From NCBI RefSeq assembly GCF_014466955.1, contig NZ_AP023396.1:5704001-5768000 (forward strand): a stretch of 64,000 bases of DNA. The letters are read 5' to 3'. Within the stretch, counting starts at the first letter, position 1. Every line of letters starts with the position of its first letter. A model generated the notes under the pieces. That model was not told the origin of the DNA. It did not search any database and saw only the letters and a program-made list of their open reading frames with translations. This DNA comes from Nocardia wallacei. Its GTDB lineage: Bacteria > Actinomycetota > Actinomycetes > Mycobacteriales > Mycobacteriaceae. This document shows positions 6,720 through 58,132 of this stretch, piece after piece. Made by a program: the position numbers and the translations under genes.

Positions 6720-7831
6720 CGCGCACCCGCCGAGGCCAGGACCATCCGCACCAGGTCGACGTTCGCCATGTCGTCGGCCGCCGAACATCGGCCCGGCGCG
6801 ACCAGATCGACCGCGGCACAGATCTTCTCGGCGTCCGGCGTGGGAATCGCGACTCGCGGCGGCGCGAAGGTGAGTCCCGGCGCGCCGGTACGGGGGTCGA
6901 GGATCGCGGTGAACGCGCCGGTGATCACGGGAACCATGTCGAGGATCTGGCGCAGGGTGGCGATGTGCGCGCCGAGGAACCGGATCAGCGGCACCGACGC
7001 GTCCAGCAACAGGAAGATCGGATCCCCGAACATCGTGGTGATGTCGTTCAGCATGGGCAGCACTCGGCGGAAGTGGTCGATGATGACGGTGGTCTCGCTG
7101 AACAACTCGTTGTTCACCTGCCGCAGGATCTGCTCCAGCCCCAGCACCATCGCGTCGATCGTGCCCCAGTGTGTGGACACGCTGTCGGCCAGCGCCGAGA
7201 GGCTGTCGACGATGCCCGACAGTCGGCCGATGGCCGCGTCGGGATGGTCCAGCGCGGTACCGAGCTTGCCGATGACGGCGTTGAGCTGCGGCCCGGTGCC
7301 CGCCGTCGCCGCGTTCAATTGGGTTACCAGACGGCCGATCTCGTCGTTCTGCTCGGGTTCGGGCCCGAGCAGCTGTTCGGACAGCTCGGCCACGGCGTGC
7401 AGCGTCTCGGTCAGGCTCTTCGGCGTCAGCGTTCGGGTGAGACACTGCCCGGGATCCCACCGATCGGGCACGGCGCCGCTGTTGAGCACGGCCAGATCGC
7501 GGTCGGTGGTGACATTGCGCGACAGTGTCGTCGCGGCGGCATCGGCCAGGACCGGGTGCGCGGCGTCCACGGCGAACTCGACCCGCACCTTGTCCCCGGC
7601 GGGCCGGACATCGGTGACCGTGCCGACGGGAATGCCCCGCATCGTGACGTGATTGCCCGCGTACAGTCCGATGCTGTCGGGCATCAGCGCACAGTAGGAC
7701 ACCGTCTTGCGCAACGGATTCGCGACGACGAGATAGCCGACCACGGCGACCACGACCAGTACCAGCGCACCGGCCACCGACATCGTCACCCGCGAACCGA
7801 GCACGGTGTGCAGAGCGTGTCGTCGGATCAT
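6716..7831 (-). CDS. mceD: MCE family protein, position D
   Basis: 371 aa with one N-terminal transmembrane helix (residues 17-37) and an MCE domain at about 40-120 (GLYAGNHVTMRGIPVGTV is its diagnostic strand pair). A helical barrel-forming tail follows. The start ATG shares one base with the mceC stop (TGATG), and the stop overlaps the mceE start by 4 nt, so translation of C, D and E is coupled. Substrate specificity of this paralogous mce cluster cannot be read from the sequence. Confidence 0.92.
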   Translation of the reverse strand: MIRRHALHTVLGSRVTMSVAGALVLVVVAVVGYLVVANPLRKTVSYCALMPDSIGLYAGNHVTMRGIPVGTVTDVRPAGDKVRVEFAVDAAHPVLADAAATTLSRNVTTDRDLAVLNSGAVPDRWDPGQCLTRTLTPKSLTETLHAVAELSEQLLGPEPEQNDEIGRLVTQLNAATAGTGPQLNAVIGKLGTALDHPDAAIGRLSGIVDSLSALADSVSTHWGTIDAMVLGLEQILRQVNNELFSETTVIIDHFRRVLPMLNDITTMFGDPIFLLLDASVPLIRFLGAHIATLRQILDMVPVITGAFTAILDPRTGAPGLTFAPPRVAIPTPDAEKICAAVDLVAPGRCSAADDMANVDLVRMVLASAGAR

Positions 7832-8886
7832 CAGCAGGCCTTTCCGGGTACCGGGACGCAGATCTGCCCGAGCAGCGTCCCGCCATCGACCGGCTGCTCG
7901 GCCACCACGGTCGCGGCGGGATCGCCGACCTGTACCCGGCCGTCGGGCAGCACCAGCCCGGTCAGGTGCTCGCCGATGCCGTGCACGGAATCGACCAGGC
8001 CGCTGAGCTTTTCACCGATGCTCTCCAGCTCGTCGATGGCATCGGCCAGCTGGCGGGCCATCGGCTTCAGCGTCGTCTCCCAGGACGGTTGCAGCGCCGC
8101 GACGCGGCCGAACACCGAACGCAACAGCTGCACGGCCTCGCGCACCTCGGCCCGCTTGTCCCCGAGCAGCGTCTCGAGCAGGGTGATCTTCTCGATCATG
8201 CGGCGCAGCTGGCCCTTTCCGAGATTCACCACGCCGAGGTACTCCTGGGCGACCGCGATACCCTTCGACACGTCGGCGCGCTGGCGATTCAGGACGTCGA
8301 CGAGATGCTCTGCGCCGGTGAGCATTTCCCGGATACTGCTGGGCGCCTGGGTGAGCGAGTCGGCGAGCGCCGTGAGGTTCTCGCGCAGCGTGCCGCCGTC
8401 GATGCCCCGGACGGGGTCCACCGCGTCCTGGAAGGTCTCCATGAGGCTGTACGGCAGCCGCACGTGGTCGGCCGGAATCGCCCGGCTGCCGAGCGGTGTC
8501 GTCCCCGCCGGGAACAGGGCCACGTAGTGGCCTCCGACCAGGGTGAGCATCCGCACGTCCAGCGTGGTCTCGCTGCCCACGAAGACGTCGTTGTCCACGG
8601 TGAACCGCATGATCACCTTGTCCGGTCGCAGTTCGAGTTCGTCGACCTCGCCCACCGAGATACCGGCCAGCCGCACGTCGTCACCTGCCTTCACGGTCTC
8701 GGCCTCGGTGAGTTCGGCGGTGTAGGTGGTGCGGCCGAACGGGATCGCGTACACCGCGGCGGTCACCAGCAGCGCGAGGACCACCAGTACCGCGCCGAGC
8801 GCGCCGAGCCCGAATTCCCTGCGCCGCGTGCTGATCTCGTCTCGGCCGTAGAGCACCCGGCGCACCGTGCGGGTCACGCGTTGCAT
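7831..8886 (-). CDS. mceC: MCE family protein, position C
   Basis: 351 aa from the ATG 8884-8886, which lies inside the end of mceB (13-nt overlap). A basic N-terminus and one transmembrane helix (about 28-50) precede the MCE domain (KAGDDVRLAGISVGEVDEL). The long helical region ends with a Cys-containing C-terminus. It is a subunit of the periplasmic lipid-transfer tunnel. Length is normal for the family. Confidence 0.92.
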   Translation of the reverse strand: MQRVTRTVRRVLYGRDEISTRRREFGLGALGAVLVVLALLVTAAVYAIPFGRTTYTAELTEAETVKAGDDVRLAGISVGEVDELELRPDKVIMRFTVDNDVFVGSETTLDVRMLTLVGGHYVALFPAGTTPLGSRAIPADHVRLPYSLMETFQDAVDPVRGIDGGTLRENLTALADSLTQAPSSIREMLTGAEHLVDVLNRQRADVSKGIAVAQEYLGVVNLGKGQLRRMIEKITLLETLLGDKRAEVREAVQLLRSVFGRVAALQPSWETTLKPMARQLADAIDELESIGEKLSGLVDSVHGIGEHLTGLVLPDGRVQVGDPAATVVAEQPVDGGTLLGQICVPVPGKAC

Positions 8887-9881
8887 ATCGACACCCGCTG
8901 TCCGTCGAGCAGGATCTGCAACGGCCGCGGCACGGCCGCATTCCCCTTGCTGCACACCGGCGACGAGCCCGGAATGCGCTGCGGTATCGACGCGTCCAGC
9001 GCGGCCAGCGCCGCGGGCAACCGGCTCAGCACGTCGACGACCAGCTGCGGGTCCGGAATCAGCAGGCGCAGAATGGCTTCGATGTCCGGGTTGTCGTTCT
9101 CGGTGAACCCCAGGGTGGCCAGCAGGCTGTCGGCCGGTCGCAGCACCGGCGGCGCGGTGAGCGAGAAGTCGATCAGGCCCACCACATTGCGCTGCAGGGA
9201 GTCGAAGATGTCGGCGGCGTTGCCGAGCAGCGTGATCAACGGCGCCGAGGCGCCGCCGATCTTGTCGTTGATCTGGGACATATTGCGTATCAAGGTGGTG
9301 ATGACCCGCTGGCGGTCGGTGACGTAACCGGCCAGTTCCCCGATGGCGTCCAGGGCCGGGCCGACGCCGCTGCCGTTGCCCTCGATCACCGCGAGCATGC
9401 TCGTGGTGAACTTGTTGAGCTTCTCCGGCGACAGCGTGGCCAGCACCGGTTTCAGCCCGTTGAACAGGCTGGTCACATCGAACGAGGGCACGGTGTGCGC
9501 GACGCCGACGGTGGCGCCCGCACGCAGCGGCGCACCGGGCTCGGGCGCGTGCTGCACGTCGATGTAGCGCTGCCCCACCAGGTTCTGATACCGGACGGCG
9601 AGTTTGCTGTTGTCGAACAACGGCGCCGAGGTCGCGAGATCGAATCGCACCTTCGCCTTGTCGCCCTGCAGCGCAATATTTTTCACCTGGCCCACCGCGA
9701 TCCCGCGCAGCCGCACCTCGTCTCCGGCGCGCAGGCCGTTGACATCGGTGAACAGCGCTGTGTACGTGCGGGTCTCGCCGTCCACCGGCTGTCTGATGAC
9801 CGAGACGATCGCCACCAGCAGCAGCCCGATCACCGCGGCGAACAGGGCGAACCGCCAGGCGGCGCCGCGCGTTGTCTTCAT
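8874..9881 (-). CDS. mceB: MCE family protein, position B
   Basis: 335 aa. One transmembrane helix (10-30) is followed by the MCE core GLRAGDEVRLRGIAVGQV and a helical tail ending in a Cys-rich patch (PVCSKGNAAV, SICNA). It overlaps mceA upstream by 4 nt and mceC downstream by 13 nt. The role is the same as the other tunnel subunits, and position in the operon assigns the letter. Confidence 0.92.
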   Translation of the reverse strand: MKTTRGAAWRFALFAAVIGLLLVAIVSVIRQPVDGETRTYTALFTDVNGLRAGDEVRLRGIAVGQVKNIALQGDKAKVRFDLATSAPLFDNSKLAVRYQNLVGQRYIDVQHAPEPGAPLRAGATVGVAHTVPSFDVTSLFNGLKPVLATLSPEKLNKFTTSMLAVIEGNGSGVGPALDAIGELAGYVTDRQRVITTLIRNMSQINDKIGGASAPLITLLGNAADIFDSLQRNVVGLIDFSLTAPPVLRPADSLLATLGFTENDNPDIEAILRLLIPDPQLVVDVLSRLPAALAALDASIPQRIPGSSPVCSKGNAAVPRPLQILLDGQRVSICNA

Positions 9882-10912
9882 CGTCCACCTCCGTCGGGAA
9901 GCGCGGCCGCCCCGACCGCGATCACGGGGATGTTGCGCAGGTCCACATCGGCCTGCAGCACCGGGCCGTCGGGAGTGTCGGGCAGCGCGGCGCCCATGCG
10001 CTCGATCAGCTCGCGCACCTCCGCGCCGGAGCGCCGCGGCTCCGGCACCATTCGCGCGACCACCTGCAGCACCGGTATCGCCAGCTCGGTGTAACCCGCG
10101 AAGCCGGTCTCGGCGTAGCGCAGCGCCCGCGCCACCTCGGGCAGCAATTGGTCGATCACCATCGAGATGCCACCGTCGATCCGTACGCGATCGTTGCGCA
10201 GCGTCTCGATCCGGTACACGCGGTCGAGCAGGTCGACGAGGGAGTCCATGAAGTCTCCGCCACCCTCGAGCGTGGTGCCGAACCGCCCGAGGATCAGCGA
10301 CAGCGGCACATCCTGCACCTCGGTGACGGTGCGGGCCAGCGTGACGACCGATTCCAGGAAGGGGGTGAAGGCCCGGGTGTCGGCGGCCAGGGTGGCCAGC
10401 AGCGTCACCATGCGCGGGGTGAGCACGGCATCACCGACCTGCGACAGGCTGCGCAGCAGGTTGCCCATGGTGGCGTCGTACACCGCGTCGGACGCCGACA
10501 GGTTCAACACCGTGTCCGGCCGCAGCGGCGGACCACCCGGTCCCCGGCGCAGCTCGATCTCGCTGATGCCGAACAGGTTTCCGGTCGCGTAGTCCACGCG
10601 CAGGCTGGTGTCCAGGCCGGGCAGGCGCGCGGAATCCAGTCGGAGCGTGATGTTCTGGGTGCCGCGCTCGCCGGGCACGATGCCGGTGACGCGGCCGACC
10701 CGCACACCGTCGAGCCGGACCTCGGTGCCCGCGGTGACGCCGTCCCCGATGCGGCTGGTGCGCAACACGATCCGGAGTCCGGGCTCCGCACGCACCGCGC
10801 GATAGGTCACCGTCACGAGCGCGACCAGCACCACCACCGCGAGGGCCAGCGCACCGACGGCCAGCGCGCGGTGACGATCGACGGTCACTCCGGGAATCCC
10901 ATAGTTCGGCAT
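9878..10912 (-). CDS. mceA: MCE family protein, position A
   Basis: 344 aa with a transmembrane helix at about 18-38 and the MCE domain at about 45-125 (GVTAGTEVRLDGVRVGRVTG). A helical tail follows. It is the first Mce subunit after the two permease genes, 6 nt downstream of yrbEB. Some MceA proteins contribute to host-cell entry in pathogens; that is family knowledge and nothing here tests it. Confidence 0.92.
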   Translation of the reverse strand: MPNYGIPGVTVDRHRALAVGALALAVVVLVALVTVTYRAVRAEPGLRIVLRTSRIGDGVTAGTEVRLDGVRVGRVTGIVPGERGTQNITLRLDSARLPGLDTSLRVDYATGNLFGISEIELRRGPGGPPLRPDTVLNLSASDAVYDATMGNLLRSLSQVGDAVLTPRMVTLLATLAADTRAFTPFLESVVTLARTVTEVQDVPLSLILGRFGTTLEGGGDFMDSLVDLLDRVYRIETLRNDRVRIDGGISMVIDQLLPEVARALRYAETGFAGYTELAIPVLQVVARMVPEPRRSGAEVRELIERMGAALPDTPDGPVLQADVDLRNIPVIAVGAAALPDGGGR

Positions 10913-10918
10913 CGGCGC

Positions 10919-11773
10919 TCACCCCGTGAAACTGACCGCGGAGTCGATGCCCCACAGCATGATCGACAGCACCATGTCGATGGCGATGATCGCCACCGAA
11001 CTCGCGCGCACGGCCCGGCCCGACGCGATCCCCACCCCTTCCGGACCGCCCGCGGCGAAGAATCCGTAGTAGGAGTGCACCAGGATGACCACGGTCGCGA
11101 AGACCGCCACCTTGACCACCGCGGCCACCACGTCGAAGCCGGAGACGAACTGGAAGAAGTAGTGGTCGTAGACCCCCGCCGACTGCCCGTGCACCAGCGT
11201 GATCAGCCCCCGGCACGCCAGATACGACAGGATCAGCGCGATCAGGAAGGTCGGCACCATCGCCACCGCGCCGGCGATCACCCGGGTCGTCACCACGAAC
11301 GGCACCGACCGCAGTCCCTGGGCCTCGATGGCGTCGATCTCCTCGCTGATCCGCATGGCCCCGATCTCGGCGGTCATCCGGCAGCCCGCCTGACCGGCGA
11401 AGCCGACCGCCGCCGCGATCGGCGCCAGCTCCCGGGTGATGGCGTAGGCGGACACGATGCCGGTCACCGGGCCCATGCCGAGAATGTCGAGGGTGGCGAA
11501 GGATTCGATCGCGACCGACGCGCCCATCACCAGGCCCAGCACGATCATCATCGGCACCGTGCCGCCGCCCACGATCACCGAGCCCGCACCCCAGGTCATA
11601 TTCGAGATCGCGCGCATCGTCTCCGCGCCGTAGCGGCGCAGCGTCAGCGGAATCGCCGAGAGCACCTGCCAGGTGAAGGCCAGCGCGAATCCGAGCGACT
11701 CGATCCAGGACAGCCCGAACCGGTGGCCGCGCAGCCGTCGCAATCCCTTGGGGGCGTAGCTCGATGCCGTCAT
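10919..11773 (-). CDS. yrbEB: YrbE/MlaE-type permease B of the mce transporter
   Basis: 284 aa with five to six hydrophobic segments. It has the MlaE-family core: GQAGCRMTAEIGAMRISEEI (about 128-147) is the conserved loop that contacts the MceG/MlaF ATPase. It forms the inner-membrane permease together with YrbEA. Its start shares one base with the yrbEA stop. No ATPase gene is nearby, as usual in actinobacteria, where one MceG serves all mce operons. Confidence 0.93.
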   Translation of the reverse strand: MTASSYAPKGLRRLRGHRFGLSWIESLGFALAFTWQVLSAIPLTLRRYGAETMRAISNMTWGAGSVIVGGGTVPMMIVLGLVMGASVAIESFATLDILGMGPVTGIVSAYAITRELAPIAAAVGFAGQAGCRMTAEIGAMRISEEIDAIEAQGLRSVPFVVTTRVIAGAVAMVPTFLIALILSYLACRGLITLVHGQSAGVYDHYFFQFVSGFDVVAAVVKVAVFATVVILVHSYYGFFAAGGPEGVGIASGRAVRASSVAIIAIDMVLSIMLWGIDSAVSFTG

Positions 11774-12615
11774 CAGGCCAGCCTCGTCGGCAGGAACATG
11801 GCGGTGATCTGCGTGATGACCAGGTTCACCAGCACGATCGACACCACCGACAGCACCACCGCCGCGTTCACCGCGTCGGTGACCCCGCGCGGTCCGCCCT
11901 TGGCCTCCAAGCCGCGCTGGCAGGCGATCACCACCACCAGGAATCCGAAGATCATCGCCTTCACCAGCGAGATCCAGACGTCGGCGAGCGTGGTGAACGA
12001 TCCGAACGTCGTCCAGTAGCTACCCGGCGTGACGTTCTGGCCGCCGACCGCCACCGTGTACCCGGCCAGCACGCCCACGAAGATGATCAGCACGTTCAGC
12101 AGCGGCGCCACCACCAGCATGGCGATGATCCGCGGAATCACCAGGCGGTGTATGGGACTGATGCCCATGGTGGTCAGCGCGTCGATCTCCTCGCGGATGG
12201 TGCGCGCGCCCAGATCCGCCGCGATCGCCGCCGCGCCGGCCCCGCCGAGCAGGAAGCCCGTCGCCAGCGGCGCGCCCTGTTTGATGACCCCCAGCCCGCC
12301 GGTCGCGCCCAGTAGCGAATCCGCGCCGAGCGTGCGAATCAGGTTGCCCACCTGTACCGACACGATGACGCCGAACGGAATGGCCATCAGGATCGCCGGA
12401 ATCGCGGTCACCGTGACCAGCCACCAGCCCTGCACGATAGCCTCGCGCCAGTGCAATCGGCCGCGCACGAGGTCGGTAACCGCGCCGAGCACCGCCTCCT
12501 CGGCGATGCGCACCGCGCGCCCGAAGGTGCGCACCGCGGACACCGCGGTGTCGGAGAAGTTCCGTCGCAGCACTCGTGCGGCGGAGGGGAGCGGATTCGG
12601 AACGGTAACTGTCAC
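11773..12615 (-). CDS. yrbEA: YrbE/MlaE-type permease A of the mce transporter
   Basis: 280 aa starting at a GTG (12613-12615). It is the first gene of the nine-gene minus-strand mce operon. The MlaE-type ATPase-contact loop is IAADLGARTIREEIDALT. It is paired with YrbEB as the ABC-type permease that pulls lipid from the Mce tunnel. The 280-bp region upstream (12616-12895), shared with a divergent gene, must hold the operon promoter. I saw no convincing -10/-35 pair there. Confidence 0.93.
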   Translation of the reverse strand: MTVTVPNPLPSAARVLRRNFSDTAVSAVRTFGRAVRIAEEAVLGAVTDLVRGRLHWREAIVQGWWLVTVTAIPAILMAIPFGVIVSVQVGNLIRTLGADSLLGATGGLGVIKQGAPLATGFLLGGAGAAAIAADLGARTIREEIDALTTMGISPIHRLVIPRIIAMLVVAPLLNVLIIFVGVLAGYTVAVGGQNVTPGSYWTTFGSFTTLADVWISLVKAMIFGFLVVVIACQRGLEAKGGPRGVTDAVNAAVVLSVVSIVLVNLVITQITAMFLPTRLA

Positions 12616-16644: not shown

Positions 16645-16670
16645 GTTGCCCGAAAGATGCTCCAGGGCAA
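16645..16670 (+). promoter_or_regulatory. Cluster element 1: TTGCCC-N13-GGGCAA
   Basis: This lies in the 327-bp intergenic region 16504-16830, which I see as otherwise empty. TTGCCC (16646-16651) and GGGCAA (16665-16670) form an inverted repeat with a 13-nt spacer. The left part reads GTTGCCCGAA and the right arm runs into TACGTTTG. The same element with identical spacing precedes the next P450 (18203-18229), and its left arm recurs upstream of the MetE-like gene. It sits 160 nt before the P450 start and is a candidate operator. Confidence 0.55.
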
Positions 16671-16830
16671 TACGTTTGCTAGACCTCGGGATACCGTCGG
16701 TGCGATCCGGCGTCAGGGTGGGGCGGTCGAAGCAGTGCCTTATCCGCGCGCGGCGAGTCGGCGGCGTCCCCGGTGACGTTCCCACCGCCGGACCCGCAAC
16801 CGTCCGGCCGCAGTCAGTAAGGAGCTCCCG

Positions 16831-18078
16831 ATGTTGGAGTCTGTGTCGCATCCGATCGTCCTGAATCCCGACGGCGTGGACATTCAGGGCGAGTCCGCCC
16901 GCATCCGCGCGCAGGGGCCCGTCACCGCGGTCGCGCTACACGACGGTGTGCGCGCCTGGTCCGTGACCGACCAGGCCATCCTCCGGGATCTGCTGCGCGA
17001 CAAGCGCGTATCCAAGGACCCGCGGCAGCACTGGCCCGCCTTCCGGGAGGGCCGCATCACCCCGGCCTGGGGTCTGTTCACCTGGGTGGCGGTGACCAAC
17101 ATGTTCACCGCCTACGGCGCGGACCACACCCGCCTGCGCCGGCTGGTCCAGCCCGCGTTCACCCAGCGGCGCACCGACGCGATGCGACCGCGCATCGAGG
17201 CGATCACCGCCGACCTGCTGGATCGGCTCGCGCAGACGCCGCCCGGCGAAGCGGTCGACCTCCGCGAGGAATTCGCCTACCCGCTGCCCATCCGGGTCAT
17301 CTCCGAACTGATGGGCGTGCCCGAGTCGCTCAATCCCGGCCTGCGCACCTGCGTCGACGGCATCTTCGACACCTCCCTGACACCCGAGCAGGCCCAGGCC
17401 AATTTCGCCGAGATGCAGCGCATCCTGCGCGAGCTGGTGGAATATCGGCGCGGCACTCCCGGTGACGATATGACCAGCGTGCTCATCGCGCACCGCAGCG
17501 AGGAGGACGGCTCGGCACTGACCGAACAGGAACTCGTCGACACCCTGCTGCTGGTGATCAGCGCCGGACACGAGACCACTGTGAATTTGCTGGATCAGGC
17601 GATCTACCTCCTGCTGACCCGGCCGGACCAGCTGGCGCAGCTGGAGTCCGGCGCGGTCGACTGGAAGAACGATCTGGTCGAGGAGGTGCTGCGGTACGAG
17701 GCGCCGGTCGCGCATCTGCCGCTGCGCTACGCCGTCGAGGACATCGATATCGAGACCGCCGACGGCGTCGTCCACATCGGCCGCGGCGAACCGATTCTCG
17801 CCTCCTACGCCGCGGCCAATCGCGACCCGAAGGTGCACGGCGACACCGCCGACCAGTTCGATGTGACGCGAATCAACAAGGCGCACATGGCCTTCGGCTA
17901 CGGCGCGCACCTGTGCCTGGGCGCGCCGCTGGCCCGGCTGGAGGCCGAGGTGGCGCTGCCCGCCCTCTTCCGCCGCTTCCCCGGCATGCGGCTGGCTGCC
18001 GACCGGTCGGAACTGGGCACGGTGGCGAGTTTCATCTCCAACGGCCACAAACGACTGCCCGTGCGGCTGACCGCCTGA
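16831..18078 (+). CDS. Cytochrome P450 (canonical)
   Basis: 415 aa with AAGGAG just upstream. It has the I-helix SAGHETT, a K-helix ExxR within EEVLR, and the heme loop FGYGAHLCLG with Cys362 as thiolate ligand. All are canonical for a soluble class I bacterial P450 (CYP105/107-like). It needs a ferredoxin and reductase, neither of which is in the window. It opens the halogenase locus and shares an upstream element with the next P450. The substrate is unknown; a phenolic made by neighbouring enzymes is a reasonable guess. Confidence 0.93.
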   Translation: MLESVSHPIVLNPDGVDIQGESARIRAQGPVTAVALHDGVRAWSVTDQAILRDLLRDKRVSKDPRQHWPAFREGRITPAWGLFTWVAVTNMFTAYGADHTRLRRLVQPAFTQRRTDAMRPRIEAITADLLDRLAQTPPGEAVDLREEFAYPLPIRVISELMGVPESLNPGLRTCVDGIFDTSLTPEQAQANFAEMQRILRELVEYRRGTPGDDMTSVLIAHRSEEDGSALTEQELVDTLLLVISAGHETTVNLLDQAIYLLLTRPDQLAQLESGAVDWKNDLVEEVLRYEAPVAHLPLRYAVEDIDIETADGVVHIGRGEPILASYAAANRDPKVHGDTADQFDVTRINKAHMAFGYGAHLCLGAPLARLEAEVALPALFRRFPGMRLAADRSELGTVASFISNGHKRLPVRLTA

Positions 18079-18202
18079 CCCTCGCGGCACCGTCCGAACG
18101 GTCCGGTCGCCATGTTCCCGGCGGCGGCCGGACCGGCCGGTCAGCGCTGCGGATTCACGATTAGCCTGCGGGATGCTCCGAGGGTAGCTACGATGTAGGG
18201 CT

Positions 18203-18229
18203 GTTGCCCGAATTGTTCTCAGGGGCAAC
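18203..18229 (+). promoter_or_regulatory. Cluster element 2: GTTGCCC-N13-GGGCAAC
   Basis: A perfect 7-nt inverted repeat (18203-18209 and 18223-18229) with the same 13-nt spacer as element 1. Both share the left-arm text GTTGCCCGAA and a following GTTTG. It begins 142 nt upstream of the P450 start at 18345. Repetition at matching places before two genes of one locus supports a shared operator. Confidence 0.6.
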
Positions 18230-18344
18230 AGGTTTGACTCATCATGGGTTTGTTTTGCCGCGAGCGCCGGACGCACCCCGGCCGTCGGCTGAGAGAGGGC
18301 GCCGATGCCCGCATTACGTCTTGTCTACCGTTTGGAGATCATCT

Positions 18345-19586
18345 GTGACCGGTTCTCGTCCACCAGGCGCCTTCATGGACTCGCCGTTGTTCATCGAGGG
18401 GCAGCGATTCTCGATGTACACACCGGAATTCGCCGCCGACCCCCATCCCGCGTACCGGGAAATGCGCCGCCAGCACGGTTCGCTGGTACCCGTCATGCTC
18501 GCGCCCGGTGTGCCGGCCACCTTGGTGATCGGTTACCGCGCCGCGCTGGAGATCCTCAACGACCCGGGGCATTTCCCGGCCGATCCCCGCGCATGGCAGC
18601 AGTCCGTCCCTGAGAACTGCCCGCTGCTGCCGATGCTGGAGTGGCGGCCCAACGCGCTGCGCACCGACGGCCGCGAGCACGACCGCTACCGGGAGGCCAA
18701 TACCGCCGCGATCGACGGCATCGACCTGAACGCGATGCACACGGTGGTCGAGCGGATCGCGATCGGGCTGATCAACACGTTCTGCGAGGAGGGCTACGCC
18801 GATCTGCTCGAGCAGTACATCTACACGCTGGTTCGCAGCACGCTCGACCACATGCTGGGCTGCACCGCCGATGTCGGCGAACGGGTCGCCACCGGCAGCG
18901 CGATGATGTTCGACGCCCAGGGCGACGCCGAGGCCGGTAACCGGATGCTGCTCGAGGCGCTGCAGGAACATATCGCCTACAAGCGCGCGCATCCCGGAAA
19001 CGACATCACCAGCCGGTTGATCGGCCATCCCGCCGGGCTCGACGACGCGGAGATGGTGCACCAACTGGTCACGCTGTACGCGGCCGGTGTCGAGCCGGGG
19101 GTCCATCTGATCGCGAACACGCTGCGCATCATGCTCACCAACGACCGCCTCGGCGGCGATCTGGTCGGTGGCAGCCTGTCGACCCGTGACGCGCTCGACG
19201 AGGTCCTGTTCACCGATCCGCCGCTGGCGAACTACTGCGTCAGCTACCCGCGCCAGCCCATCCTCATCAACGACGTCTGGCTGCCGGCGAACCAACCGGT
19301 CGTGATCAGCATGGCCGCCGTCGGCGCGGACCCGTCCGTCACCGGGGGCGACCGCACCGGCAACCGGTCGCATCTGGCGTGGAGCGCCGGGCCGCACGCC
19401 TGCCCCGCCCGCTCGGTGGCCTACCTCATCGCGCAGGACGCGATCGACCAGCTGCTCGACGCCCTGCCCGACATCCGCCTGGCCGTGCCGGTCGAGGAAC
19501 TGACCTGGCGGCCGGGCCCGTTCCACCGGGCGCTGGTGTCGCTGCCGGTGGCGTTCCCGAAATCCGCACCGTTCAACCTGGGCTGA
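18345..19586 (+). CDS. Non-canonical cytochrome P450 lacking ExxR (CYP157-like)
   Basis: 413 aa from the GTG 18345, with GGAG at 18334-18337. The heme loop is WSAGPHACPAR with Cys353. The K-helix reads DEVLF where ExxR should be, so the otherwise invariant Arg is missing. The I-helix AGVEPG has the acid but lacks the usual Thr. Loss of ExxR is known for the CYP157 family of Streptomyces conservons, and the segment VMLAPGVPATLVIGY also fits that group. No conservon genes are present here. It is convergent with a paralogue. It may be a peroxygenase-like or coupling enzyme, or a structural partner. Confidence 0.88.
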   Translation: MTGSRPPGAFMDSPLFIEGQRFSMYTPEFAADPHPAYREMRRQHGSLVPVMLAPGVPATLVIGYRAALEILNDPGHFPADPRAWQQSVPENCPLLPMLEWRPNALRTDGREHDRYREANTAAIDGIDLNAMHTVVERIAIGLINTFCEEGYADLLEQYIYTLVRSTLDHMLGCTADVGERVATGSAMMFDAQGDAEAGNRMLLEALQEHIAYKRAHPGNDITSRLIGHPAGLDDAEMVHQLVTLYAAGVEPGVHLIANTLRIMLTNDRLGGDLVGGSLSTRDALDEVLFTDPPLANYCVSYPRQPILINDVWLPANQPVVISMAAVGADPSVTGGDRTGNRSHLAWSAGPHACPARSVAYLIAQDAIDQLLDALPDIRLAVPVEELTWRPGPFHRALVSLPVAFPKSAPFNLG

Positions 19587-19654
19587 GGACACCGGGCGCC
19601 CCGCGGCCCGCACATTCCCCGCGGCCGCGGCGGCGGTGGTCGGCGGCCTCCGGT

Positions 19655-20926
19655 TTACATGACGGGCAGCGGCGGCGACGGCGAGAAGGTGACCGGCAGA
19701 TCCACCAGGGCGCGGTGGAACGGCCCGGGCCGCCACACCAAATCCCTTTCGGCCCTTGCCATTTGCATGTCCGGAATGGCGTCGAAGAGCTGATCGATGC
19801 CGGGTTGCACGGTCAGCCGCGCTACGTCCTGCGCCGGGCAGCGGTGCGGCCCGGCGCTCCACGCCAGGTGCGAGCGATTGCCGATGCTGCTCTCACCCAA
19901 CTCCGTGCCGCGGATCTCCGGATCGTTGTTGCAGGCGGCCAGGCTGATCACCACCGGCTTGTGCGCGGGCAGCCACACCCCGTCGACCATGATCGGCTGG
20001 CGCGGGTAGGTGGTGCAGAAGTTCGCCATCGGCGGGTCGTTGAACAGCACCTCGTCGATCGCGTCCACGGTCGACAGGTTCCGGCCGAGCACGTTCTGGC
20101 TCTGGAACCGGTCGTCGGTCATCATCAGCCGCAGCGCGTTGGTGATCAGGTTGCGCTGCGCCTCGAATCCCGCGCCGTAGAAACTCATCAGCTGCGCGAA
20201 GACCTCGTCGTCGTTGAGTTCGTACTGCGGGTCGGCCAGCACCGAGGTGACGTCGTTGCCGCCGTACTCGCGCTTGAGCTGGATGAGTTCCATGAGCGCC
20301 ATCTTCAGCGTCTGCATGCCCTCGGGACGGCCCTCGAACCGCTCGGCCATGCCCTGGGCCACCCGCGTCCCGATGTCGGGCGGGCAGCCGACCATATCGT
20401 TGATCACATCGAGCACGAGCGGAAAGGCGTACTGCGTCACCAGATCCGCGTAGCCGTTGCCGCAGAAGTTGTTGATCAGCGGCCGGGCCAGCCGCTCGAC
20501 CGTGGCGGGCACGGCGTGCAGGTTGATGTTGTTGATGGCGGCGACCGAGGGCCGCCGGTACCGTTCGTGCGCGGCGCCGCTGTTGTACCGCGCGGCGGGC
20601 AGGTAGGCCATCATCGGGCGGACCGGCGAATCCGCGGGGATGGTGTCCTGCCAGGTGCGGGGGTCGGTGGGAAAGTGCTCCGGATCGTTGAGAATCCGTA
20701 CGGCGGTGGCGTATCCGATCACCAGGGTGGCCGGCACGCCGGGCGCGAGCATGACCGGGACCAGGGAGCCATAGCGTTCCCGCCAGTTGCGGTAGGCGCC
20801 GTGCGGGTCGTCGACGAACTCCTGGGTGTACATGGGTACCCCGTCGTCGATGTCACCGGAGGCCGCGTGCTGGACGGGGCACATTCCGGTCGCGGTGGTG
20901 TAGGAGGGGGGCTGTGGTGTGGTCAA
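19655..20926 (-). CDS. Non-canonical cytochrome P450 lacking ExxR, paralogue
   Basis: 423 aa. I placed the start at the TTG 20926 because GGAG lies 8 nt before it; a TTG at 20944 is the alternative. It is closely similar to the convergent P450 at 18345, sharing VMLAPGVPATLVIGY and HLAWSAGPH. The heme ligand is Cys363 in WSAGPHRCPAQ. The K-helix is DEVLF (Arg missing), and the I-helix is AGFEAQ (Thr missing). Two such P450s facing each other suggest an inverted duplication followed by divergence. Confidence 0.88.
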   Translation of the reverse strand: MTTPQPPSYTTATGMCPVQHAASGDIDDGVPMYTQEFVDDPHGAYRNWRERYGSLVPVMLAPGVPATLVIGYATAVRILNDPEHFPTDPRTWQDTIPADSPVRPMMAYLPAARYNSGAAHERYRRPSVAAINNINLHAVPATVERLARPLINNFCGNGYADLVTQYAFPLVLDVINDMVGCPPDIGTRVAQGMAERFEGRPEGMQTLKMALMELIQLKREYGGNDVTSVLADPQYELNDDEVFAQLMSFYGAGFEAQRNLITNALRLMMTDDRFQSQNVLGRNLSTVDAIDEVLFNDPPMANFCTTYPRQPIMVDGVWLPAHKPVVISLAACNNDPEIRGTELGESSIGNRSHLAWSAGPHRCPAQDVARLTVQPGIDQLFDAIPDMQMARAERDLVWRPGPFHRALVDLPVTFSPSPPLPVM

Positions 20927-21231
20927 AGACGTGACTCCAGACAAGCGAACTGAGGTAAGCGATCAGTGAGCGCGGGCACGTAAAACACGTAATACCGGCC
21001 GCGTGCCGCGAGCGAATACCGCGGCGCGCCGGGTCGCTGAGGGGTCGAAACTGCAGCCTCCATGACCCGTCGACCGGAAACCTGGCGACTCGCCCACGGG
21101 TAGCAACATAGCAACGATCGCGATCGCGTGCGGCGGCATCATCCCAGAGCTGGCCCGAACTCACCATCGACGCGCGGATGTAGCTGCGCGCCGACCCGGC
21201 ACGCCGCGGCCCAGAACCGGCCGTGCCCTGC
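20927..21231 (-). other. Intergenic region upstream of the minus-strand P450
   Basis: About 305 bp without a recognisable gene. It contains a direct repeat CACGTAAAACACGTAA near 20976-20992 and an outer inverted pair GGCACG/CGTGCC around it. This could be an operator for the P450 gene. It lacks the GTTGCCCGAA element found elsewhere in the locus. Confidence 0.35.
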
Positions 21232-22992
21232 TCAGGTTGCTCGCAGCTCGACCAGGGCCGCCATCACGCTGTGCAGAATGTGCGTTTCGCCCCATCCGCC
21301 GAATTCGGTGGCGGCGGACGCGCATTCGAGATGCAGCCCGCCGGGAACCGTACCGACCGCCCGGCAAACGCGGAGGAACTCCGCGATCGCGGCGCCGACC
21401 TCACCGACGCGAGAGCCGCTGTTGCCGTTACGGGTTCGCCCGCGGGCCCGCATCGGGTCGGCCATCCAGCACACCGGTGTCGACCGCGCGGCGGCCGCCT
21501 CGATCAGCCGCGGCAGCCAGTCGCCGATCGGCTCGGCGCCCAGGCGCGCCACGAGGGTGAGCCGCCCCGCCTGTTTGCCGGGATTCAGCTCCAGGCACAG
21601 CCGCTCGACCTCGCGGGGCGTGGTCTCCGGCCCCACCGATACGGCCACCGCGTTGCGGACCCGGGCGGCGAACCTGGTGTGCGCCTGCGTATTTCGAGCC
21701 CGGTCGCCGATCCAGACCAGCTGCGTCGAGCAGTCCCACCAGTCCGGGCCGTGGCGGGTGAGCGCGGCGGCGTACCGCAGCGTCGGCGCCTCGTGCGAGA
21801 TCCGCAGCCGCGTCATCGAGCTGAACAGCTCGCGCGCGGCCGTCGGCGCGGCGGCGGCCAGCGGCAACAGCCCGGCGACCTCGCGGAACACGTCACGGGC
21901 CACCTGATCGGTGGACCGGTCGGCGGCATGGCGCAGCAGATCCGCGCTCGCCGCCACCGGCGCGTGCCGGGTACGCCAGTAATTGACCGCGGCCGCGGCG
22001 TGAAAGTAGGTCTGCAACAACGGATCCGGCGTCTCCGCGGCCGTGCCGAGGCGGCCGGACAGGTGGCTCACCGGCACCACCCGGACTTCCGCGCCGAGCC
22101 CGTGGGCGAGCACCGCGGTGGCGGCGTGGACGAGCGCGCGCCGGGCCGCGAGCGAACGGGTGTCGCAGACCAGGGGCGCGTCGTCGCCGTCACCGAGATG
22201 CAGCACGAAGGCCCGGCCGCGGGTGGCCGCGGCCAGGTCGCCGATCAGCGCCTCGCAGTCGCTCGGGTCGACCAGCGGGGGCAGCGCCCGCAGCCGCTCG
22301 ACGCTGCCCGGCGGCGCCTCGTCCTGCGGGACCGCCGATTCCCACAGCGCCGTCGCCGGGTCGGCCGCGTCCGGCTCGGGGGTATCGGGCTCGTCGGACC
22401 AGGGCAGGTCGCCGTCGGCGGCGATCTCGGCGCAGTCCGGCGGAATCACGTCCGGGTTGAAGGACTCCCGGATGTAGCACAGCGGCCGATCACCGAGCAC
22501 TATGACGTAGGCCTTGGCGGCGCACAGGCGGCCGTCCGGCCACCGTGCCACGCCCGCGCGCAACACCTGCCGCCGCTGGGACACCCCGCGCGACACCAGG
22601 GTGTACCCGATCGGCATCTGCACGTCGTCCACCCCGCATGCGGCGGCCGGGCCGCTGACGGTGACGACGTGGTTGACCGACACGGTCACCAGGTCGGGGT
22701 CGATCAGGCACGAGCGGCGGACGATGACCCGGTCGGCGCCCGACACCTGCAGGGCATCGGTGACCGCGGCCGGAATCCGCGCGGCCGCGACGTCGTCCTG
22801 CCGCAGCACCCGCACCTGGAGTTCGGTACGCAGGATCGCCTCCAGCACCGGCATCGTGAAGCCGTCACTGGCCAGCAGCATCCTGGTGAGCGGATGCGCG
22901 AATTGCGCGATTTCGTCTCTGGGGGACCGCGCCCCCGAATCGCCGGGCGACTGGTCGCCTGGCGATTCGGGGACGGAGTGAACGATGGTCAC
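21232..22992 (-). CDS. Chorismate lyase-like domain fused to a degenerate class II DAHP synthase domain
   Basis: 586 aa from a GTG. Residues 30-182 match the DUF98/Rv2949c chorismate pyruvate-lyase family, with the conserved acid E176 in YIRESF; this would release 4-hydroxybenzoate from chorismate. Residues 235-585 match class II DAHP synthase, for example VWIGDRAR, GRLTLVARLG, ADPM and PGGLHLE. Compared with the mycobacterial enzyme, the metal Cys is Gly269, the metal His is Arg515, the Asp ligand region is deleted and the PEP Lys is Ser452. Only E556 of the metal set remains. The second domain is therefore probably non-catalytic. The gene is 24 nt after the halogenase. Confidence 0.85.
   Translation of the reverse strand: MTIVHSVPESPGDQSPGDSGARSPRDEIAQFAHPLTRMLLASDGFTMPVLEAILRTELQVRVLRQDDVAAARIPAAVTDALQVSGADRVIVRRSCLIDPDLVTVSVNHVVTVSGPAAACGVDDVQMPIGYTLVSRGVSQRRQVLRAGVARWPDGRLCAAKAYVIVLGDRPLCYIRESFNPDVIPPDCAEIAADGDLPWSDEPDTPEPDAADPATALWESAVPQDEAPPGSVERLRALPPLVDPSDCEALIGDLAAATRGRAFVLHLGDGDDAPLVCDTRSLAARRALVHAATAVLAHGLGAEVRVVPVSHLSGRLGTAAETPDPLLQTYFHAAAAVNYWRTRHAPVAASADLLRHAADRSTDQVARDVFREVAGLLPLAAAAPTAARELFSSMTRLRISHEAPTLRYAAALTRHGPDWWDCSTQLVWIGDRARNTQAHTRFAARVRNAVAVSVGPETTPREVERLCLELNPGKQAGRLTLVARLGAEPIGDWLPRLIEAAAARSTPVCWMADPMRARGRTRNGNSGSRVGEVGAAIAEFLRVCRAVGTVPGGLHLECASAATEFGGWGETHILHSVMAALVELRAT
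22933..22972 (-). repeat. 40-bp palindrome at the start of the fusion gene
   Basis: Twenty-nt arms centred at 22952/22953, with one G-T mismatch pair. It falls 20 nt inside the fusion gene, encoding a low-complexity stretch (residues 8-19, with SPGD repeated) before the first conserved residue. It can form a strong hairpin between the halogenase and the fusion domain. It may tune the second cistron, or the true start may lie beyond it. Confidence 0.6.
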
Positions 22993-23016
22993 GACAACAT
23001 CCGTGTCCGAGGACCG

Positions 23017-24498
23017 CTACACGGCCTCGGCGTCGCGCTTCGGCGGGATGAACGGCCGGACCACGCCCTCCATTTCCGCGGCCGTGCGCGGCCGGTTGGT
23101 GAGGCCGAGCACGGGCGCGGTGGTGATGCGCACGTCACCCATCACCGTGTCCGCACCCAGCGGGTCGCGCCAGATGTTCCATACCGGGGACATGTCCAGA
23201 TGCCCCATGTACTTGATGTTCACGCCGTCCTCGTCGAGGTGCTCGGCCTCGGCGACGATGGTGTCGGTCTCGATGCGCCGCTGTTCGCCCGCCGACTCGC
23301 TCACGTCGGTCAGCCCGGCCATGATCCGGGTGAACGATTCCTCCGGTGTGTCACCGGCTTTCACGTCGGTCAGCGTGCTGGCGTGCGAGAAGTACTCGTT
23401 GGCCCCGATGTACTGCTCGTACATGCGCGACACCAGCACCAGGAAGCGCTCGTAGGCACGGCGATAGGTGTAGTCGAAGAACGCCAGTGCCTCCGCCTCG
23501 GGCATCTCCCCGCGCAGCGCGGTGGCGATGGATGCCGCGGCGCACAGCCCGCCGTACGTCGCCAGGTGCACGCCGGTGGACAGCAGCGGGTCCAGGAAGC
23601 ACGCCGAGTCGCCGACGATGGCGTAGCCGGGACCGCAGAACCGGTCGGACACATAGGAGTAGTCCTGCTCCGCCCGTACCTCGGTGACCTGGCGGGCGCC
23701 CTCGAGCATCACCGCCAGCTTCGGGTTCTTGCGGATGGAGTCGTGATAGAACGCCTCCCGCGAGCCGAGTTCGCGCACCCGCGCCCCGGCGACCGTGGTG
23801 GGAACCACGTAGCCGACGCTGTAGCGGCCGTCCGCCAGCGGGATGTGCCAGAACCAGCCGCCCTCGTCGGTCGAGACCACGTTGATCGCGCCCTCGGGAC
23901 TGTCGGGGTGCAGGTGCGCGCCCTCCCAGTAGGACCAGACCGCGATGTTGCGAAAAGCCTTGTGCTGCTTGCGCATATCGAAGTACCGACGAGACAGCAG
24001 CCCGGCCCGGCCGGATGCGTCGACGAGGAAGTCGAAGGTGGTGGTGCGGACCTGATCGTCACCGGCGAGGGTCCATTCGACCGCGGTCGGGCGGTCGTCG
24101 TCGAACACCACGTTCTGCACCGTGGCCTGCTCGATCACCTCGGCGCCCTGCTTGGCGGCGTTGCGGAGCAGGATGTTGTCGAATTCCGCGCGGTCGACCT
24201 GCCAGGACCATGCCTCGGCGTCGACGAGCTTGGACCAGTCCAGCAGCCAGGTGTCGTCCTTCCACTGGAAATATCCACCGCGCTTCACCTGGAACCCGTG
24301 GGCGGCAACCTCGTCGTACGCACCGGAAAGGCGCAGCGTCGACAGGCACGACGCCAGCAGCGATTCCCCGATGTGGTACCTCGGAAATTGGTCCTTTTCC
24401 AGGAGTGTTACTCGAATGCCCGAGCGTGCGAGCAGGGCTGCCGTGGTCGACCCGGCGGGGCCTCCACCTACTACTAGGACGTGCGGATTGTTCCCCAT
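23017..24498 (-). CDS. FADH2-dependent halogenase
   Basis: 493 aa from the ATG 24496-24498, with GGGAG 6 nt upstream. FAD site GGGPAGS (residues 11-17), then FPRYHIGES (38-46). The halogenase signature WxWxIP is WFWHIP (215-220). The later segment GDSACFLDPLLSTGVHLA is typical of the CndH/CmlS/PltA branch rather than free-tryptophan halogenases. It should use FADH2, O2 and chloride or bromide to halogenate an electron-rich aromatic ring. The needed flavin reductase is not in the window. With the next gene it forms a two-gene operon. Confidence 0.9.
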   Translation of the reverse strand: MGNNPHVLVVGGGPAGSTTAALLARSGIRVTLLEKDQFPRYHIGESLLASCLSTLRLSGAYDEVAAHGFQVKRGGYFQWKDDTWLLDWSKLVDAEAWSWQVDRAEFDNILLRNAAKQGAEVIEQATVQNVVFDDDRPTAVEWTLAGDDQVRTTTFDFLVDASGRAGLLSRRYFDMRKQHKAFRNIAVWSYWEGAHLHPDSPEGAINVVSTDEGGWFWHIPLADGRYSVGYVVPTTVAGARVRELGSREAFYHDSIRKNPKLAVMLEGARQVTEVRAEQDYSYVSDRFCGPGYAIVGDSACFLDPLLSTGVHLATYGGLCAAASIATALRGEMPEAEALAFFDYTYRRAYERFLVLVSRMYEQYIGANEYFSHASTLTDVKAGDTPEESFTRIMAGLTDVSESAGEQRRIETDTIVAEAEHLDEDGVNIKYMGHLDMSPVWNIWRDPLGADTVMGDVRITTAPVLGLTNRPRTAAEMEGVVRPFIPPKRDAEAV

Positions 24499-24628
24499 AG
24501 CAAACTCCCTGGAAACTGCCGACAACAAGAACGCGCGCGTCTACACCGGCGACCGGACCCACTCCGGGCTCCAGGCTGGCCAGCAACCCGAACCAAGCAT
24601 TGCCGCTGGATAACTAGAAGACGTAGCG

Positions 24629-24665
24629 CAATAGTTATTGTAGGAAACGATCATTGAAAGCTCAA
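24629..24665 (-). promoter_or_regulatory. Promoter of the halogenase operon with overlapping palindrome
   Basis: On the minus strand TTGAGC (24660-24665) and TACAAT (24637-24642) are separated by exactly 17 nt, a good sigma-70-type promoter 140 nt upstream of the halogenase start. A 12-bp perfect palindrome, CAATAGTTATTG (24629-24640), overlaps the -10 box and the expected start of transcription. A repressor could sit there. The patch is clearly AT-richer than its surroundings. Confidence 0.6.
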
Positions 24666-25070
24666 GTGCAAGAACATTTTTCGGCGGTCGACAGCGCCCC
24701 GCGCGGGGTGCTGAAAGGTAGCGGATATCCACAGAGGGCGCGGCGTGCCGCGCTGTCGCCCACGGCATGTCGGTATCGATGCCGAAGGAATCAGGGAAAC
24801 CCGGAAGTACTACCGAGCCGAACGCTTCGCCGGGAACGTCACCGGAGGGACGGAAGGCCTGGCCGGAAGCGGCAACGAACATCTCGTCTCGTCATCACCC
24901 GCTCTTCCTCGTAAACATCGGTTTGGCGGCCTCGATCCAGGGTACGGCCATCGACGTCCGCACGGGGGCGTTGCGGGCAAATCGGTCGAAAGTCTGTGTT
25001 CGCACTATTGCGAATGCGCAGCACAGGCTCCGCCCCAGGGCGATTCGTCGATACGGCGGTGTTCGGCTGT
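24666..25070. other. Intergenic region between halogenase promoter and MetE-like gene
   Basis: About 400 bp between the end of the MetE-like gene and the halogenase promoter. I see no open frame with family features and no tRNA. Short frames here have poor composition and no ribosome-binding sites. Confidence 0.5.
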
Positions 25071-26198
25071 CTACCCGCGTGGACCGGCGGCGAGGGCGAC
25101 CGTCGTCGCGGCGGCCTGTTCCGCCTCCGCCACCGAGCATCGGCCCAGGCCACAGGCGGTCGCTATGCCGTAGGCCGGGCGGCCCGCCGCCGCCTCGAAC
25201 AGGTCACGGGCGCGGGCACTCTCGTCGCCCGGGTCCGAGGAGGCCACCCCGGCGATCACCCGCCAGCCCGGATCGAGTTCGCGCAGCGGCGCGTAGAAAC
25301 CCGGGTCCAGCGGCGCCGGCTCGGCGCCGAACGCGCACGGCACGTGCACCGGCGGCAGCGGGACCCCCGCCTTGTGCAGTCGTCGCGCGGTGTGATTGAG
25401 CAGCGTGACCGCCGGGGCGAGATCGCGCGGCGACAGCAGGCTCTTGTGCTGATAGTCGCCGTAGCACAGGTGCACGACCCGGTCCGCGCCGATCGCTTCC
25501 ATGCGCCCGAGGAACCCGGCGAGCTGCCCGGCGACGAGTGGCGCCACCGCCCACTGGGAGCGCAGCTGCTGGGCTTTGACCATGCTGAGCAACGCGAGCG
25601 GCGACTCCACCTGCCAGACGACGCTGTCGCCGTAGCGCTGCTGGACCTCGGTCATCTCCCGCAGCACCGCCTCGGTGAACACCGGCAGATTGCGCAGCGC
25701 GGCGATGACGACTCCGCTGTGCCGCAGCGCCCTTCCGACCGGCAACCCGGCCGAAACCGCCGCCCCGGCGAAGACGAACATCGCCAGATCCAGCGGATTC
25801 GGCTGACTAATCTGCACTTTTACTCCAGCCAGCGCCGGTCGCTCGCTCCGCAGCGTCTGCCAGGCCGCGACGACGTCGCCGATGCGCTCGACGCGGTCCA
25901 TGGCCACGTGCTCGGGCTGCAGCTTACGGCCCTGTCGCACACCGTAGCTGGGGAAAGCGCTGTAATCGGCGTAGTCACCGGCTGCGACGATCTCGAAGAC
26001 ATCATGCTTTTCACGGGTCCGTAGGTACTCGATGATCCAGTCGGGGTCCAGATCACACGGCACGCCCGTCACCGGGTTGCCCGCGGCGTGGTCGGCGAAC
26101 CACTGCAGTACGGCCCTGTTTCCCGTCATCAATTCTCTCGGAAGAGACCCGACAAAGTGTGCGTACCTGGCCTGATGCGGCTCTGCTGTGCTGTTCAT
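25071..26198 (-). CDS. MetE/UROD superfamily zinc enzyme (methionine synthase II-like)
   Basis: 375 aa from the ATG 26196-26198. The N-terminal HFVGSLPRE and the C-terminal zinc-site pieces HLC (H243, C245) and ACGLGR (C349) match the C-terminal catalytic barrel of cobalamin-independent methionine synthase and its relatives, such as epoxyalkane:CoM transferase. Those enzymes use zinc-activated thiols as methyl or alkyl acceptors. It lacks the N-terminal half of true MetE (about 750 aa), so it is probably not the housekeeping enzyme. An element shared with the P450 promoters lies upstream, tying it to the halogenase locus. Substrate unknown. Confidence 0.8.
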   Translation of the reverse strand: MNSTAEPHQARYAHFVGSLPRELMTGNRAVLQWFADHAAGNPVTGVPCDLDPDWIIEYLRTREKHDVFEIVAAGDYADYSAFPSYGVRQGRKLQPEHVAMDRVERIGDVVAAWQTLRSERPALAGVKVQISQPNPLDLAMFVFAGAAVSAGLPVGRALRHSGVVIAALRNLPVFTEAVLREMTEVQQRYGDSVVWQVESPLALLSMVKAQQLRSQWAVAPLVAGQLAGFLGRMEAIGADRVVHLCYGDYQHKSLLSPRDLAPAVTLLNHTARRLHKAGVPLPPVHVPCAFGAEPAPLDPGFYAPLRELDPGWRVIAGVASSDPGDESARARDLFEAAAGRPAYGIATACGLGRCSVAEAEQAAATTVALAAGPRG

Positions 26199-26336
26199 GC
26201 GGGCCCTGCCATCCGTTGCTCGAGCCGGGCGCTCGGCCCGGCCACGTCGTTCGTCAGCCTTTCCAGGGTACCCGCGCATACCGCCCCGCTACTCCCGTTC
26301 CTGAGAGACGACCGCATCGCACCAGCTCGGCGCGGT

Positions 26337-26379
26337 TTCGGGCAACCTCCCAATAGCATTAGCGGGCAACGGTTTTCAC
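26337..26379 (-). promoter_or_regulatory. Cluster element 3 upstream of the MetE-like gene
   Basis: On the gene's strand the sequence contains GTTGCCCG twice in direct orientation (complement of 26363-26370 and 26339-26346). The second copy reads GTTGCCCGAA exactly as in elements 1 and 2. It is preceded by AAAACC, similar to the CAAAC flank of the other two. It ends about 140 nt before the start codon, the same range as the others. The direct rather than inverted arrangement is a difference. Confidence 0.5.
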
Positions 26380-45492: not shown

Positions 45493-46242
45493 ATGACCGA
45501 CGAACAATTCTGCGACATGGTCGCCGCACACCTGGCCGCCCTGCCCACCGTGGAAGCGGTCACACTCGGCGGCTCCCGCGCCATCGGCACCCACACCCCC
45601 GACAGCGACTGGGATTTCGCCATCTACTACCGTGGCCGCTTCTCTCCTGACCGACTGCGTGAGATCGGTTGGCCCGGAACGGTTTCCGAGATCGGCGCAT
45701 GGGGTGGTGGGGTGTTCAACGGCGGTGCCTGGCTCACCATCGACGGCCGGGCCGCCGACATCCACTATCGCGATCTCGACGTCGTCGAACACGAAATCGC
45801 CGAGGCACGCCGAGGCCGGTTCCATTGGGAGCCACTGATGTTCCACCTGGCCGGGATTCCCAGCTATCTGCTGATCGCGGAACTGGCCCTCAACAAAGTC
45901 TTGCACGGACAACTCCCACGACCGCAGTATCCCCAAGCCCTGCGCATCGCCGCACCGCCGATCTGGCGCGACAAAGCAGAACTGACACTGCGCTATGCCC
46001 GCACCGCCTACGCCGCGCGCGGCCAGGTCACCGAATTCGCGGGCGCACTCGCCACCGCGGGCATGCAGACCGCGCACGCTGTACTCGCCGCACGTGGCGA
46101 ATGGGTCACCAACGAGAAACGGCTCCTACACCGAGCGGGGCTACGCGAACTCGACGACATCATCGCCGGACTCCGTCCCGAACGAGCGACCCTCGACCAG
46201 GCGCTCTCCCGCACGCAAATTCTGCTGCGCTCAGCGGAATAG
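45493..46242 (+). CDS. Nucleotidyltransferase-like protein
   Basis: 249 aa from the ATG 45493, with GGAG at 45483-45486; an ATG at 45481 is an alternative. The active-site pattern GGSRAIGTHTPDSDWDF (residues 26-42) matches the pol-beta-type GSx(n)SDxD motif with D39 and D41 in place, like aminoglycoside or DUF4037-type nucleotidyltransferases. The C-terminal helical domain is not assignable. It may modify a small molecule, RNA or protein. No HEPN partner is adjacent. Confidence 0.8.
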   Translation: MTDEQFCDMVAAHLAALPTVEAVTLGGSRAIGTHTPDSDWDFAIYYRGRFSPDRLREIGWPGTVSEIGAWGGGVFNGGAWLTIDGRAADIHYRDLDVVEHEIAEARRGRFHWEPLMFHLAGIPSYLLIAELALNKVLHGQLPRPQYPQALRIAAPPIWRDKAELTLRYARTAYAARGQVTEFAGALATAGMQTAHAVLAARGEWVTNEKRLLHRAGLRELDDIIAGLRPERATLDQALSRTQILLRSAE

Positions 46243-58106: not shown

Positions 58107-58132
58107 CGCACCCTCCCAGAATGTATTGATGA

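Follow-up and report, generated by a model that had tools for sequence, protein, structure and literature searches.

A conserved Nocardia gene cassette that may produce a small halogenated aromatic compound without carrier proteins

A 64,000-nucleotide stretch of the Nocardia wallacei genome (contig NZ_AP023396.1, assembly GCF_014466955.1; hereafter "the window") holds a group of genes that may direct the synthesis of a small halogenated aromatic compound. The window covers forward-strand positions 5,704,001-5,768,000 of the 7.89-Mb genome, and six genes span its 16.8-26.3 kb region: three for cytochrome P450-like proteins (P450a, P450b, P450c), one for a fusion protein, HAL and METE. HAL (23017-24528, minus strand) encodes a putative FADH2-dependent halogenase resembling CndH, RadH and CmlS, with the motifs WFWHIP and GFQVK. 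On the same strand, the 586-aa fusion protein (21232-22992) starts with an Rv2949c-like chorismate pyruvate-lyase domain, LyN (22378-22992, residues 1-205), and continues with a class II 3-deoxy-D-arabino-heptulosonate 7-phosphate (DAHP) synthase domain that has lost its metal site (pseudo-DAHPS, 21232-22350). METE (25071-26279, minus strand) encodes a core-MetE-like barrel protein of 402 aa from the first start codon, a probable zinc thiol-alkyltransferase. Of the P450 genes, P450c (19655-20944, minus strand) is a conserved cassette member, CYP157-like and without the ExxR motif. P450b (18204-19586, plus strand) is a divergent paralogue and occasional member, and P450a (16831-18078, plus strand; PF00067, E 5.7e-27) is a canonical P450 adjoining the cassette and probably outside it.

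Gene starts were set at the first start codons, and the true starts may lie further inside, for HAL possibly by some codons (its relative P0190 has 493 aa). With these starts, 24 bp separate HAL from the fusion gene on the same strand, and the distance from METE, which is upstream, to HAL is 542 bp. The first-pass annotation had listed three P450s, a chorismate-lyase-like protein, an FADH2-type halogenase with WFWHIP and a MetE-like enzyme. All were present, but the lyase is only the N-terminal third of a fusion, and two of the P450s are noncanonical. Its remark that carrier-based assembly is lacking was borne out: no nonribosomal peptide synthetase, polyketide synthase or carrier protein was found in ten open reading frames (ORFs) scanned at 14.5-28.4 kb, nor in a further ten (4.7-14.5 and 29.1-33.0 kb), with the remaining window covered partially, by six scanned ORFs.

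HAL passed the Pfam cut-off for PF04820 (E 4.3e-37). Its placement among known enzymes was made by bit scores. A phmmer search of PDB sequences gave 8zop, labelled "Halogenase" (248 bits), 3e1t (239), RadH (221) and CmlS (209) as best relatives; chains of 5buk, ChlB4 and PltA followed at 127-153 bits, and PltM at 44. We take 3e1t to be CndH, and 5buk is presumably Mpy16. A kinship with tryptophan enzymes, which the earlier annotation had considered, was not seen, as tryptophan halogenases stayed below 30 bits. CndH (3e1t), RadH (8gu0) and CmlS (3i3l), the best-scoring solved relatives after 8zop, have differing substrates, and RadH acts on free phenols. All three align with HAL over the lysine and W-x-W-x-I-P regions. 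The motif GFQ[IV]K, which aligns with this lysine region, occurred in all 47 HAL copies compared below, as did W-x-W-x-I-P (WFWN in 29, WFWH in 13, WIWH in 4, WLWH in 1), and the exact string GGGPAGS was found in 44. Passages of PMC5945002 suggest that WxWxIP prevents monooxygenase action and describe the lysine as essential in BrvH. PltM differs from HAL, sharing only the 44 bits given above; as described in parts of PMC6424973, it takes free phenols as substrates, and the compound it makes serves as a transcriptional regulator.

The LyN domain is followed in the fusion protein by a class II DAHP synthase fold. A Foldseek search with a model of the whole fusion returned the DUF98 protein 2nwi (E 4.9e-8, TMt 0.79), a match that presumably falls on the LyN domain. 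RExFxP was present in 45 of 45 LyN copies. PF01947 was matched at E ≤0.1 by 10 of 15 stand-alone LyN relatives (best E 1.7e-4), and the best value among 39 fusions was 7.6e-5. When a profile of the stand-alone relatives was searched against the PDB, 2nwi reached only E 0.7 and ranked sixth of six rows, behind chains of a pur operon repressor and a mycocerosic acid synthase.

In the DAHP synthase domain, the metal ligands C, H, E and D correspond to G, R, E and F in the window protein, with one of four kept. The fusion alignment comprised the window protein and 38 of 69 listed proteins. The CHED pattern was intact in 22 of 90 aligned rows. Divided by id number, these were 3 of 64 rows of a Nocardia group, which holds duplicates (the window protein about four times, and some loci with repeated protein ids), versus 19 of 26 other rows (P0163-P0189 without P0179); the 26 include two from Mycobacterium, one from Actinomadura and one from Spirillospora. 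Across the lyase relatives, the domain was seen intact, eroded and absent. A role as active flux booster was rejected for the window protein because its metal site is lost; the fused domain probably once boosted flux and is now catalytically dead there. Other lyase-DAHPS proteins were seen by eye beside ketosynthase III-like and AMP ligase-like genes at two loci (L044, L045).

The window METE matched no Pfam family, PF01717 included, and this family matched one of 52 METE relatives (E 0.0017). Its predicted structure was closest to core methionine synthases, with a barrel fold that matches MesD and MetE, an H-x-C ending beta-5 and a Cys after beta-8. In an alignment of the window protein with 51 of 120 listed proteins, H270, C272 and C376 were invariant in all 52 and sit where the matching strands end, at the positions of the His, Cys and Cys zinc ligands. 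Unlike MesD and MetE, METE seemingly lost the Glu that serves as fourth ligand, and it had no match among PDB sequences at E 10. The end of beta-6 held no invariant acid and H312 was invariant; the Glu is probably replaced by H312.

Only P450a is canonical among the three P450s. P450b and P450c, which are 54% identical, have EVLF at the ExxR position and lack the I-helix Thr. P450c keeps the heme Cys, with the I-helix sequence YGAGFEAQ in 30 of 32 copies and DE[VI]LF in 27 of 32; the other five lack the latter pattern. CYP157 proteins carry EVLW and similar K-helix motifs instead of ExxR and are linked to conservons, as described in parts of PMC3599690. The label "CYP157-like" refers to this likeness of K-helix motifs, EVLF to EVLW, and not to percent identity with a named CYP157. 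All 150 sampled Nocardia genomes had matches to the P450c family, some of them at least 11. The genome of the window has 12 members including P450b and P450c, two of them within ~0.7 kb of a DUF742 gene, whereas the window itself holds no conservon DUF742 gene. Since P450c relatives occur genus-wide and some stand beside DUF742 genes, a conservon-type family is the probable source from which P450c was recruited.

Conservation was compared in a sample of 150 Nocardia genomes. HAL, counted at ≥66% identity, was found in 46 of them, at 47 loci; ten further genomes had only 36-49% relatives (E 1e-60). Up to 20 kb surrounding each of the 47 loci was compared, in some cases cut by a contig edge, with 29 kb for the window itself. 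In 45 loci, LyN was the same-strand neighbour of HAL, with gaps of -3 to 153 bp, and the two exceptions were a contig end (L082) and the second HAL copy of one genome (L110). METE lay within the stretch in 34 loci, in 31 on the HAL strand, and P450c in 33, always on the HAL strand. A Na+/H+ exchanger-family antiporter (PF00999, ≥30% identity) was present in 29 loci, 28 times on the same strand. It is absent at the window locus, and a relative (59%) is located elsewhere in the same genome. The commonest order was METE, HAL, LyN, antiporter and P450c, with P450c before the antiporter in some loci. P450b occurred in nine loci (here and below the window is counted), every time on the opposite strand. 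P450a-like genes were found in four, the three other loci holding 31-38% relatives. GH1, GMC oxidoreductase and Holin-X genes, present in 4, 1 and 2 loci, were ruled out as cassette members.

The conserved unit extends from about 19655 to 26279, with P450a outside and P450b inside in nine loci only. A search for co-occurrence of all six genes had been proposed; HAL, the lyase, METE and P450c indeed travel together, but P450a is not conserved and P450b is occasional. Because the loci are related, the counts are not independent events. Even so, the cassette goes beyond chance, as the same order repeats across the genus. Independent scattering of the homologues in related genomes, which the first-pass annotation had named as evidence against a joint pathway, was not observed. 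A scan of genome contigs gave five Nocardia loci, and HAL is 97% identical to the halogenase on a Nocardia wallacei contig.

The ratio of nonsynonymous to synonymous substitution rates (dN/dS) indicated strong purifying selection on HAL (0.04-0.11). LyN, compared in the same number of pairs (nine, hand-chosen), had 0.11-0.30; METE had 0.11-0.28 (five pairs), and three pairs gave 0.09-0.13 in P450c and 0.10-0.13 in the antiporter. Start finding met a stop codon in six METE stretches, one LyN stretch and one antiporter stretch. The METE locus alignment held 20 of 34 rows, the six stop-containing rows being omitted, and the LyN alignment 15 of 45.

By hand count, none of the 37 genomes listed with a METE of ≥66% identity lacked HAL (the METE of G009 is partial). 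The cassette was split in 12 HAL-bearing genomes, where METE and P450c stand side by side at another site. In a P450c tree of 44 tips, two of which duplicate the window gene and one of which is linked to neither gene, seven of these 12 genomes and two genomes without HAL (G030, G132) grouped with the HAL-linked P450c (support 0.996), and the copies of the seven were taken as orthologous. METE and P450c were adjacent at L127 and L128, with no halogenase or lyase there.

Outside the genus, 12 halogenase loci (42-51% identity) from ten genomes of other actinomycete genera were compared with the cassette, and LyN and METE were absent from the fetched stretches of all 12. In a 394-genome sample, four genomes of the same genus were among those listed, and HAL reached the threshold only in that of the window. 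Relatives of cassette proteins occur in Mycobacterium heidelbergense, Spirillospora and Kribbella. More distant halogenase loci (L121, L111, L112, L119, L156, L157) had a cation/H+ antiporter relative in their 20-kb stretch; L121 (G000:C1:5112717-5115314) belongs to the window's own genome.

Taken together, we consider it rather probable that these genes form a conserved, carrier-free set directing the synthesis of a small halogenated aromatic compound. Formation of 4-hydroxybenzoate and its halogenation without carrier proteins would be the best reading of the sequences. As suggested by its fold, LyN would cleave chorismate to 4-hydroxybenzoate. HAL, judged by its motifs and together with a flavin reductase encoded elsewhere, would then halogenate the free phenol beside the hydroxyl. 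The later steps are more tentative: METE might use a zinc-activated thiol to transfer an alkyl group, P450c, a CYP157-like heme protein, might tailor or bind the product, and the antiporter might serve export or self-protection in many species. This reading was drawn from gene content, order, co-conservation, motifs and predicted folds, from which we infer the product, the halide and the last steps.

Several observations weigh against it. The chorismate-lyase reaction of LyN is not assured because PF01947 scores fell below the cut-off: three stand-alone relatives reached 17.0-19.8 bits (cut-off 22), and the window fusion had no match at E 0.1. No flavin reductase was found among the scanned neighbour ORFs (14.5-28.4, 4.7-14.5 and 29.1-33.0 kb). 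CndH, a close HAL relative as 3e1t, may act on a carrier-bound substrate. HAL scored 229.5 bits against the NCBIfam QhpG monooxygenase model (cut-off 240) and 249 bits against the CmlS halogenase equivalog (cut-off 900); by these scores, HAL is not CmlS itself. METE was absent from the fetched stretch in 13 of the 47 loci and P450c in 14, and the three opposite-strand METE, 59-61% identical, are probably paralogues. In G030 and G132, METE (60-61%) stands next to P450c with HAL absent, and G183 keeps METE without HAL and without P450c in the stretch.

HAL could instead act on a thioester or a larger scaffold from a distant cluster, with LyN feeding an unrelated pool of 4-hydroxybenzoate. The score of 3e1t, as high as that of RadH, and the other-genus halogenase loci without LyN or METE fit this view. 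However, HAL and LyN adjoin on one strand at nearly every Nocardia locus, with the narrow gaps given above, and we regard a distant scaffold as unlikely. A further alternative is a bmp-like route, in which a P450 couples halogenated phenols, giving biaryls or diaryl ethers. As in the marine clusters described in parts of PMC10579414, genes for a lyase, a halogenase and P450s stand together here, and the first-pass annotation had proposed such chemistry with three P450s as the coupling set. This was rejected as the leading explanation: the sole canonical enzyme, P450a, shows no conservation with the cassette, and P450c, the member that is conserved, has a CYP157-like K-helix without ExxR, has no I-helix Thr and comes from a family found in every Nocardia genome sampled. 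Biaryl coupling is possible and not indicated, and the route as a whole seems doubtful.

HAL might also be a flavin hydroxylase, which would yield a hydroxylated rather than a halogenated benzoate. Its match to the QhpG model came near the cut-off, and some relatives are named "flavin-dependent monooxygenase QhpG" in the source annotation. The peptidyl tryptophan dihydroxylase 7ctq, presumably QhpG, scored only 43 bits versus 248 for the best halogenase. Moreover, WxWxIP and the lysine context were kept in every HAL copy, and parts of PMC5945002 tie WxWxIP to the suppression of monooxygenase action; a hydroxylase is therefore improbable. It is very improbable that the genes adjoin by chance or survive as relics without joint function. 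The METE and P450c pairs of G030 and G132, genomes that lack HAL, and the decaying DAHP synthase domain would suit such an origin, but gene order is conserved and dN/dS is low for HAL, LyN, METE, P450c and the antiporter.

In one Nocardia clade, a kinase gene lies directly downstream of HAL and the fusion gene (11 of 47 loci; for example L105:4352-6757). The one kinase gene scanned had NIT and HATPase domains and is CvnA-like, and a CvnB-like roadblock gene was clustered with it in 8 of the 11 loci (for example L039:5574-5990). Together with the CYP157-like P450 in the operon, these genes hint at a bolder idea: the product might be a genus signal read via conservon-type G-protein systems, a halogenated 4-hydroxybenzoate finished by a zinc thiol-alkyltransferase from a new core-MetE-like family and an ExxR-less P450, chemistry without precedent in such pathways. 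We rate this as a long shot.

Elsewhere in the window, Mce-type transporter genes (MlaD and MlaE) were found at 7831-12615. The G+C content drops to 0.54 at 52-54 kb, within a region noted at 46000-62000. A DNA cytosine methylase gene (55655-57325) and a Toprim protein gene (60739-61773) lie near this low-G+C stretch, which may be a mobile element.

Carrier-free halogenated-phenol pathways as such are already known. The ambigol cluster of the cyanobacterium Fischerella follows a carrier-free chlorophenol logic like that of the cassette, and to our knowledge it has no METE-like gene. Bmp5 is probably another type of halogenase than HAL. Marine bmp-type clusters use chorismate-derived 4-hydroxybenzoate, a flavin halogenase and a P450, as outlined in parts of PMC10579414. 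The cassette resembles them in all three respects and differs by its DUF98-like lyase, fused in the window to a dead DAHPS domain, its CndH/RadH/CmlS-like halogenase, its non-ExxR P450, METE and the antiporter. The differences thus lie in the lyase architecture, the type of halogenase and the two tailoring enzymes of uncharacterised families. The first-pass annotation knew of no described actinobacterial pathway of such composition, and among the open-licence papers listed in our searches for the gene combination there were marine and cyanobacterial pathways, some work on metabolic engineering and no description of the Nocardia cassette. Nocardia papers searched by term in their main text made no mention of halogenation or chlorination, hydroxybenzoate or chorismate.

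If the halogenated-aromatic reading is true, about three in ten of the Nocardia species sampled would be producers of a halogenated aromatic compound that goes unmentioned in the Nocardia papers searched. The cassette would offer a direct route to this compound and to a reaction for the nearly Pfam-less MetE-like family, and it would give the CYP157-like P450s a catalytic context. In the lyase fusion, the decay of an enzyme domain can be followed across related bacteria through intact, eroded and absent forms.

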